Below are positions 33,453-35,171 of a stretch of 64,000 nt of DNA, in pieces (position 1 is the first letter of the stretch; each line of letters begins with the position of its first letter). The notes beneath the pieces were generated by a model. That model made no database searches and was not told where the DNA came from. It saw only the letters and a list, made by a program, of their open reading frames with translations. Source of the DNA: Alphaproteobacteria bacterium (GTDB lineage: Bacteria; Pseudomonadota; Alphaproteobacteria; UBA6615); the NCBI GenBank assembly GCA_028279245.1, contig JANQOE010000112.1, positions 1-64,000 on the forward strand, in the 5' to 3' direction. The position numbers and the translations under genes were made by a program.

Positions 33453-33755
33453 TCAGCCGATATGCGTCAGGTTATACTGTTCGATGCGCTTATCCTCGAC
33501 CATCGCCGCGGTAGCCGCATCGAAGGCCTTGAAGTGCGCAGTCTGCAAATGAGCCTGGAAAGCGTCGGCACTATCGTAGATTTCGTACAGGACAACAACA
33601 TCCGCATCGCCATCCCGCGGAACTGCCACATCAAACCGGCTACATCCGGGCTCGTCTCGAACGGATGTTGTCGCATTCTGGCTCACCAGTTCGAGAAACC
33701 GGTCCCGCGTACCTGGCCGCAGCCGAAAAACCACCCAAATCACAAAGCCTGACAA
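33453..33755 (-). CDS. ABM-domain protein (putative quinol monooxygenase-like)
   Basis: RDRFLELVSQNATTSVRDEPGCSRFDVAVPRDGDADVVVLYEIYDSADAFQAHLQTAHF. Confidence 0.85.
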   Translation of the reverse strand: MSGFVIWVVFRLRPGTRDRFLELVSQNATTSVRDEPGCSRFDVAVPRDGDADVVVLYEIYDSADAFQAHLQTAHFKAFDAATAAMVEDKRIEQYNLTHIG

Positions 33756-33823
33756 GGCGCTCCTCCCATCGTTCCTTTGGGCCGCATGCTATAAACACCA
33801 ACCTCCAATCACAACGGCACCCC

Positions 33824-34753
33824 GTGACCAGCACGCCCCAAGATCAGCCGGAGACGGCCAACACCTCCCCGGCGGAAGCGACCCTGCCGCCTTTGGGCAT
33901 CGCACTGCTGGTCGGCCTCACCCTGGGCTGGGGACTGACTTGGCCGATCATGAAGATAGGGGTCACCGCCATCCCGCCGGTCACCTTTCGCGCGTTCACC
34001 ACGCCCCTGGCCGCGCTGGCCATGATCCTCATCATGATGGGCTTCCGAGTGCCCCTGCGGCTGCCGATTGGCCGCTGGGGGCCCCTAGCGCTCGGCTCCC
34101 TCCTAAACATGGTGGCTTGGTTCATTCTGATGTCGATCGGCGTCCTGCTGATCGATTCCGGCGAAGCCGCCATCCTTGCCTACACCATGCCCCTGTGGGC
34201 CGCCATTCTCGGCGCCCTAATCCTGAAGGAGCGGCTGAACGCCAAACGAGCCGCGGCTCTTGGCGCCGGACTTGCCGGAATTCTGTTGCTGGCCACCGAC
34301 CAGGTCGCCGCCGTACGGGCGTCCCCGCTCGGTGCTGCGGTAATGCTGGGCGCCGCAATGACATGGGCCGCCGGCACCATCCTGCAGAAACGTGTGCAGT
34401 GGAACATGCCGATCCTGGCGGTGACGACGTGGCAGCTCATCATCGCAACGCCGCCCATGATCCTGGCCGGCCTCATTCTCCGGCCCAGCGAGCCGATCGT
34501 CTTCAGCGGCGCGGCCGTCTTCTCCATTATCTGGGTTGTCCTGGTCGCTCACGCCTACTGCTTCACGGCCTGGTTCAAGATCATCAGCATGGTGCCCGCA
34601 ACGGTTTCGGCCCTCAGCGTCCTGGTCATACCGGCGGTCGGCGTCATCAGCGGGGCGCTGATCCTCGGGGAAACGGTGAGTTGGCGCGAGTGGGTCGCGC
34701 TCGCTTTTGTATCGAGCGCCGTCGCCCTAACCCTGACCGGCGCCCGCCGCTAG
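33824..34753 (+). CDS. DMT (EamA) family transporter
   Basis: Ten predicted TM segments; LTLGWGLTWPIMKIGVTAIPPVTFRAF. Probable GTG start at 33824. Confidence 0.88.
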   Translation: MTSTPQDQPETANTSPAEATLPPLGIALLVGLTLGWGLTWPIMKIGVTAIPPVTFRAFTTPLAALAMILIMMGFRVPLRLPIGRWGPLALGSLLNMVAWFILMSIGVLLIDSGEAAILAYTMPLWAAILGALILKERLNAKRAAALGAGLAGILLLATDQVAAVRASPLGAAVMLGAAMTWAAGTILQKRVQWNMPILAVTTWQLIIATPPMILAGLILRPSEPIVFSGAAVFSIIWVVLVAHAYCFTAWFKIISMVPATVSALSVLVIPAVGVISGALILGETVSWREWVALAFVSSAVALTLTGARR

Positions 34754-34755
34754 CC

Positions 34756-35025
34756 TCAGGCCGTTTCCGCCAGCACCTTGGTTGAGGTCAGGACGAGATC
34801 AACGGTCGGGATCTGCCGCATCGCGTCCGCCACACAGCCAGCTTCGAACTCGGTCAGCGCGGCGATTTCCAGGTCCACATGTTGCCGGGCGAGATGCCCG
34901 ACATGGCTATGCACGCGGTCGGGCACGAGCCCACGCTTGGCAAACAGCTCCAGCACCCGCGGCAGCGTGCCCGGGTCGGCGTGGGCTTGAACGAAAAAAC
35001 AGGTGGTGGGGTTAGGCGAGGTCAT
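34756..35025 (-). CDS. Small ACT-domain-like protein
   Basis: CFFVQAHADPGTLPRVLELFAKRGLVPDRVHSHV resembles ACT/IlvN-type domains; start at ATG 35025. Confidence 0.6.
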   Translation of the reverse strand: MTSPNPTTCFFVQAHADPGTLPRVLELFAKRGLVPDRVHSHVGHLARQHVDLEIAALTEFEAGCVADAMRQIPTVDLVLTSTKVLAETA

Positions 35026-35027
35026 CG

Positions 35028-35123
35028 GATACAGGCTCCAAACGGGAGGTGAACGGACAGGCGAAAACATCCGGGCGCCCCATGGACACCCGGCCCCTAA
35101 TTCGTCCGTTCAGGGCCTGTATC
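35028..35123 (-). promoter_or_regulatory. Nested inverted-repeat 5' leader of the ACT-like gene (candidate cis-regulatory RNA)
   Basis: Outer GATACAGGC (35028-35036)/GCCTGTATC (35115-35123), inner TGAACGGAC (35050-35058)/GTCCGTTCA (35104-35112), plus an apical CCGGG/CCCGG hairpin. Confidence 0.55.
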
Positions 35124-35171
35124 TGCAACATCGTCTGACAACGCTACAGCACCGCGCCTGGGCGGTCCAGC

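Follow-up and report, generated by a model that had tools for sequence, protein, structure and literature searches.

A putative codon-reading leader upstream of ACT-domain, ileS and leuA genes in Alphaproteobacteria

The trp, his, ilv and leu attenuators place a short leader peptide with codons for the end product, followed by RNA hairpins, in front of biosynthetic or synthetase genes. In Alphaproteobacteria, the uORFC-8-2 motif, located upstream of cysS in Rhodobacterales, includes a terminator (PMC8632094), whereas the rnTrpL/peTrpL system of Sinorhizobium meliloti has a leaderless leader peptide, the message beginning with AUG (PMC10117765). In addition, CCNA_03934 of Caulobacter crescentus is a ribosome-profiled leader CDS of ileS (PMC4117421), and the ileS transcript of Methylorubrum extorquens starts 150 nt upstream of ileS (PMC9320726). 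Here, we describe a leader from a 64,000-nt stretch of alphaproteobacterial DNA (contig JANQOE010000112.1, positions 1 to 64,000; hereafter, the window) and its relatives, which share with the classical attenuators the succession of a short reading frame with cognate codons, a hairpin and a biosynthetic or synthetase gene.

The leader lies between the stop codon of an S41 peptidase gene (35172) and an 89-aa ACT-like ORF, all on the minus strand (Table 1). The preliminary description of this region reported perfect inverted repeats nested around an apical hairpin, did not recognize a known riboswitch class, and proposed translational control by RNA folding, conceivably with ligand feedback. The nested stems are present, the inverted repeat was also recovered mechanically, and the leader RNA is predicted to fold stably (−61.9 kcal/mol, z = −2.63, with 5 of 200 dinucleotide shuffles equally stable). 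Rfam searches of the window and the homologous loci yielded nothing relevant, neither a known riboswitch class nor a T-box, in agreement with that description; a near-threshold match to the cspA thermoregulator (58.4 bits versus a gathering score of 78) was obtained in locus L005 (1175-1554, minus strand). The leader has no other DNA copy in the same genome, and we therefore rejected a repeat or mobile element. It does, however, contain a previously unannotated reading frame of 39 codons, which encompasses the 5′ arms of all nested stems and starts 9 nt downstream of a weak promoter that was not called by a consensus promoter scanner.

Table 1. Features of the leader and the ACT gene in the window; stems were read from the window sequence, and R1 is the covariance model introduced in the text.
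Feature	Position	Strand	Remarks
Weak sigma-70-like promoter TGGACC-N17-TAGCGT	35141..35169 (35169-35164, 35146-35141)	−	spacing and place as in the strong promoters of homologues
Leader ORF, 39 codons, MLQIQALNGRIRGRVSMGRPDVFACPFTSRLEPVSDDLA*	35012..35131	−	ATG 35131-35129, stop at 35012; overlaps the ACT start by 14 nt, +1 frame
Outer 9-bp stem, 5′ arm GATACAGGC	35115..35123	−	pairs with GCCTGTATC; lineage-specific
Inner 9-bp stem, 5′ arm TGAACGGAC	35104..35112	−	pairs with GTCCGTTCA; lineage-specific
Core CGA-ATT-A	35098..35104	−	ATT 35101-35099, putative isoleucine specifier codon
Conserved 10-bp apical hairpin, CCGGGTGTCC-ATG-GGGCGCCCGG	35071..35093	−	loop ATG; covariation; R1 52.6 bits
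Inner 9-bp stem, 3′ arm GTCCGTTCA	35050..35058	−	
Outer 9-bp stem, 3′ arm GCCTGTATC	35028..35036	−	
GGAG, candidate Shine-Dalgarno of the ACT gene	35036..35039	−	AGGAG-like sites at the same place in homologues
ACT-domain protein, 89 aa, acetolactate synthase small subunit-like	34756..35025	−	

The product of the downstream gene, judged by its modelled structure, is a stand-alone ACT domain similar to the small subunit of acetohydroxyacid synthase (AHAS). The AlphaFold model displays a confident beta-alpha-beta-beta-alpha-beta fold (pLDDT 93.6) and, in Foldseek searches, retrieved ACT domains including valine-bound IlvN (5ypp), bearing out the initial annotation as ACT-like. The best solved relatives in profile searches are acetolactate synthase small subunits (E = 0.011 to 2fgc); PF22629 was matched below threshold by 7 of 28 family members but not by the window protein alone. 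An EamA-family transporter gene (33683-34753, plus strand) is convergent with the ACT gene in the window, and locus L150 likewise has an EamA-like gene downstream of the ACT gene.

A family-level search with the ACT protein produced 15 matches, the window included. A single-sequence scan of the genome contigs found no relative, but the alignment-based search recovered 43 loci from Kiloniellaceae, Pelagibius, other Rhodospirillales, Enhydrobacter, Elioraea and others. We built a covariance model of the leader (R1), which itself favours AATT, that is, an AUU codon, and a second model with the specifier codon masked (R2), the sole search free of this codon bias. Matches to R1 were detected in 93 of 385 genomes sampled across the class (about a quarter of the sampled species), and the ACT protein in 78 of these 385 (about a fifth). 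In a phylum-wide sample, eight genomes contained a match, all eight from the class of the window.

Among the 108 classified model matches, 54 precede an ACT gene, 32 precede ileS, three an ACT-ileS pair and one a ribF-ileS pair, such that, in total, an AHAS small subunit-like ACT gene is the target in 57 cases and ileS in 36, with both in three. The window's own genome carries a second element directly before ileS, with the promoter TTGACC...TATGGT and the leader MAPSRMIHGRITRPAFV*. Further targets are a small P-loop kinase (three matches) and a proline iminopeptidase (two); the remaining 13 include threonine dehydratase-like genes (L195, L203, L212), leuA (L204, L210), another kinase (L199), a small uncharacterized gene (L191, L198, L214) and chance matches. 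In the case of the kinase-like gene (motif GKIAAGKST), an element with an Ile codon is found at four loci (L162, L167, L168, L199); the small gene encodes a conserved protein of ~170 aa (LQLFFKAYDAANLDFDADAVVALYDLPC) that is NTF2-like in appearance. The two iminopeptidase loci (L155, L156), both from one genus, have a CGAATTC hairpin and no in-frame ATG, and may represent either chance matches or a reduced form of the element; being doubtful, they were excluded from the frame statistics below. Twelve loci with low R1/R2 scores and neither frame nor gene, and three others with CGAATTT and no in-frame ATG, were set aside as chance. In one genus (g43; L227, L230, L234), two elements with CGAATTA and a hairpin lie ~180-200 nt apart before a single ACT gene, the second lacking an ATG of its own in two of the three cases.

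The conserved core of the leader consists of CGA-AUU-A, 4 nt and a hairpin of the CCCGG type. The heptamer CGAATTA and a hairpin with the base CCCGG/CCGGG occur in almost all leaders of the ACT homologues; two genera of the same family have CTTATTG or CTAATTG in place of the heptamer, retaining ATT without the CGA codon. The spacing from the C of CGA to the first nucleotide of the hairpin base is 11 nt in most leaders. Among 18 aligned leaders that had not been chosen for good hairpins, 7 of 10 hairpin pairs have changes on both sides, and the covariation score is 0.319 compared to 0.168 in shuffles (reached in 0 of 500), a signal that is destroyed by sliding the partners; the count from another alignment (A7) is favourable by selection, its leaders having been picked for good hairpins. 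Thus, by covariation among homologous sequences, the hairpin is an RNA structure, and its placement appears suited to responding to ribosome position, as in attenuators. What homologues retain is the hairpin together with CGAATTA; both outer 9-bp stems are confined to the lineage of the window. Sequence varies outside CGA-NUU-A and the base of the hairpin, the arms covary freely and the loops differ. A further stem, P1, would pair CGAATTA with a later ATTCG. Its 3′ side, TTCG, is marked in ACT leaders alone (48 of 77, versus 8 of 31 ileS leaders and a background of 18%), and we rejected P1 as a family-wide stem. An intrinsic terminator was likewise rejected as a general rule because 108 of 118 hairpins are not followed by a U-tract (at least five T in eight).

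The second shared property is a conserved reading frame. In 118 of the 127 distinct leaders, an open ATG is in frame with CGA, compared to 5 and 5 in the other two frames, which points to a genuine leader ORF before the target gene, the arrangement of ribosome-mediated attenuators. Across the same set, ATGs located 15-60 nt upstream of CGA are distributed among the frames 159:10:7, the in-frame count being 159, and the spacing from ATG to CGA varies among homologues solely in multiples of three. In most leaders, a TAnnnT −10 box ends 6-10 nt upstream of the leader ATG, with the −35 element at 35-39 nt, and a Shine-Dalgarno-like sequence precedes this ATG in merely 4 of 118. Given this combination, the leader message most likely starts at or beside the AUG, that is, it would be leaderless.

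The identity of the codon following CGA tracks the target gene. All five leuA leaders, which come from four families and include three found with the codon-masked R2, have the core CGA-CTT (Leu), and two genomes (G116 and G181) combine a CTT element before leuA with ATT elements before ileS and ACT genes. The association of Leu versus Ile codons with leuA versus ileS is significant with leaders counted regardless of their relatedness (Fisher p = 1e-6), and R2 matches before such genes contain NTT codons exclusively. Within the ileS genes themselves, 49 of 778 Ile codons are AUU, yet every ileS leader recovered has this codon. Upstream of CGA, further Ile codons cluster at positions −1 to −3 (15-26%). 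The leaders thus appear to carry codons that match the pathway of the gene they precede, AUU with ileS and ACT genes and CUU with leuA, and this codon logic is, at the level of sequence comparison, well supported. Two genomes (G052 and G182) have two consecutive ACT genes, one preceded by an AUU leader. The other lies behind one long frame in which a CGA-CUU core is succeeded by a CGA-GUU core, both with a hairpin of their own downstream, an arrangement that is clearer in G182; this Leu-then-Val frame (L220 on G052:C41 and L223 on G182:C5) is possibly a two-input sensor.

Two architectures can be distinguished. Leaders of the short type (28 of 31 before ileS, 39 of 77 before ACT genes) have the stop codon of their frame within the hairpin, whereas in the long type, represented by the other ACT leaders including that of the window, the frame traverses the hairpin and overlaps the ACT start. 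The frame of long leaders relative to the ACT frame is the same in 25 of 25 genome matches and in 12 of 12 named loci; the corresponding figures for the short type are 7, 8 and 10. Because a drifting non-coding stretch would not hold a fixed overlap frame, translation of the long-type leader is likely coupled to that of the ACT gene.

We consider it probable, at roughly 75%, that the element is a leaderless, ribosome-read leader of the attenuator type that adjusts branched-chain amino acid supply and in which the NUU specifier codon is swappable. Sensing by a translating ribosome, that is, of tRNA charging, is suggested by the concordance between the reading frame, the specifier codon and the gene that follows. 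Transcription would start at or next to the leader AUG, and a ribosome would load at the 5′ end. When charged tRNA-Ile is scarce, the ribosome would wait with the single AUU in the A site. A ribosome positioned with the NUU codon in the A site covers the base of the hairpin, located 11 nt after the C of CGA; the stalled footprint would extend over CGAAUUA and the CCCGG base, such that the hairpin and, in the window, the outer stems could not close, leaving the ACT start open and the gene ON. With plentiful Ile-tRNA, the ribosome on a short-type leader would pass the codon, stop within the hairpin and leave, and the fold would close (gene OFF). On the long-type leader of the window, the frame would cross the fold and end 14 nt into the ACT gene, coupling ACT translation to that of the leader.

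For the leader in the window, the 5′ arms fall inside or close to the putative footprint of the stalled ribosome, and the 3′ arms of the outer stems are between this footprint and the ACT start, the modelled accessibility of which rises from 0.32 in the free to 0.49 in the stalled state. Across ACT leaders, the modelled change on stalling is from 0.32 to 0.38 (p = 0.06), with the stall closing the start in some of them, and occlusion of the Shine-Dalgarno sequence, a mere trend, was rejected as a general rule. From the rarity of U-tracts after the hairpin, together with the accessibility modelling, we infer that translation rather than Rho-dependent transcription would be the controlled step, with stalling switching the gene on under shortage. 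Several observations run counter to the attenuator-type reading: in the short type, the start codon is not covered by the hairpin itself; a well-translated leader of the long type could, through coupling, raise rather than lower ACT expression; the average opening of the ACT start is slight; classical attenuators have more than one specifier codon; the promoter in the window is weak; and the R1 searches were biased to AATT, with R2 alone being free of this bias.

The main rival is Rho-dependent or other transcription control: the same codon-reading leader would act on transcription, the hairpin promoting pausing or Rho-dependent, rarely intrinsic, termination, which a stalled ribosome would prevent. 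Precedents for this version exist, since both classical attenuation and the uORF motif before cysS in Rhodobacterales act on transcription (PMC8632094). Short leaders, ending within the hairpin, would also leave RNA untranslated, the window hairpin is terminator-like in a loose scan, and 10 of 118 leaders, such as L029, have a T-rich stretch after the hairpin. However, all the other hairpins lack a U-tract, and the constant frame in which the long type overlaps the ACT start points to translation. We regard control at transcription as possible but doubtful. An alternative sensor would be the nascent peptide, R-I-S/T-x-P, arresting the ribosome upon binding of a free amino acid in the manner of SpeFL or TnaC. 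Arg-Ile is almost invariant and is often followed by S/T-x-P, but the window has R-I-R-G-R, and the preceding residues vary in both length and kind. Furthermore, conservation of CGA and of a codon ending in U extends to the nucleotides themselves, beyond what a peptide would require, and the Leu and Val variants agree with the gene, rendering peptide arrest improbable.

Still less credible is an RNA aptamer for isoleucine or a related metabolite that would occlude the ACT start. The stable fold adjoining the start codon and the targets, ACT and other genes related to branched-chain amino acids, would suit a riboswitch, yet the element has no conserved loops or junction, such as an aptamer core outside the helices, the hairpin arms and loop vary freely, Rfam provides no match, the leaders preserve their frame and the codon changes in step with the target. 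Of the original description, the structure and its role as a cis-regulatory leader, which is conserved in homologues, are upheld; the stems are, however, no free-standing riboswitch, the leader itself being coding. Amino acid status is the likely signal, but direct ligand binding by the RNA is disfavoured by the joint behaviour of frame, codon and gene. Finally, the hairpin is located downstream of the S41 peptidase stop on the same strand and is terminator-like (one match versus 0.4 expected), as might be anticipated if it merely terminated the peptidase transcript or were an inert repeat. Across families, however, the element is associated with the ACT, ileS and leuA genes rather than with an upstream gene, and the lack of another DNA copy in the genome speaks against a repeat, making this explanation highly implausible.

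Beyond the attenuator-type reading itself, a broader proposal, to which we assign about even odds, is that CGA-NUU-A and the hairpin constitute a modular, leaderless, ribosome-read sensor across Alphaproteobacteria, re-addressed among Ile, Leu and Val by a one-base codon change and stackable within one frame (Leu, then Val). Its targets would be a synthetase, enzymes of biosynthesis and an unnamed protein with a single ACT domain, and control would be exerted chiefly on translation, with no terminator involved. If true, this compact, codon-addressed leader would do for ileS in Alphaproteobacteria what T-boxes do in Gram-positive bacteria, and would have a natural one-base switch of specificity. 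It would also tie the unnamed IlvN-like ACT protein, sometimes in an operon with ileS, to isoleucine supply, making its function directly testable.

In the open literature, we found one already known probable case, the Caulobacter ileS leader CDS, and no description of the leader family or of the codon switch. CCNA_03934, a small alphaproteobacterial CDS that is translated and sits immediately upstream of ileS, is probably a member of the family; it served as a control construct in the main text of that study, in which no motif, codon rule or other targets are described (PMC4117421). The transcription start of ileS in M. extorquens fits such a leader (PMC9320726). The element resembles uORFC-8-2 in being an alphaproteobacterial synthetase leader with a uORF and conserved cognate codons, but the latter has two tandem Cys codons inside the stem, a U-tract terminator, a single target and a different sequence (PMC8632094). 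With one NUU codon (AUU, CUU or GUU) before the hairpin, several targets and no general terminator, our element does not belong to that motif. With rnTrpL/peTrpL it would have in common a leaderless leader peptide, whereas the Trp codons, the trpE target and the attenuation of transcription set that system apart (PMC10117765). Compared to the trp, his, ilv and leu attenuators, the element appears to be leaderless, has a single fixed NUU codon that follows an invariant CGA and keeps a constant spacing to one hairpin, mostly lacks an intrinsic terminator and, in its long form, overlaps the start of the target gene. As in the T-box leaders of Gram-positive synthetase genes, an exchangeable specifier codon would set the specificity, and the targets include both synthetase and biosynthesis genes; however, T-boxes bind tRNA directly with a large RNA, whereas the codon of the element would be read in a translated frame.
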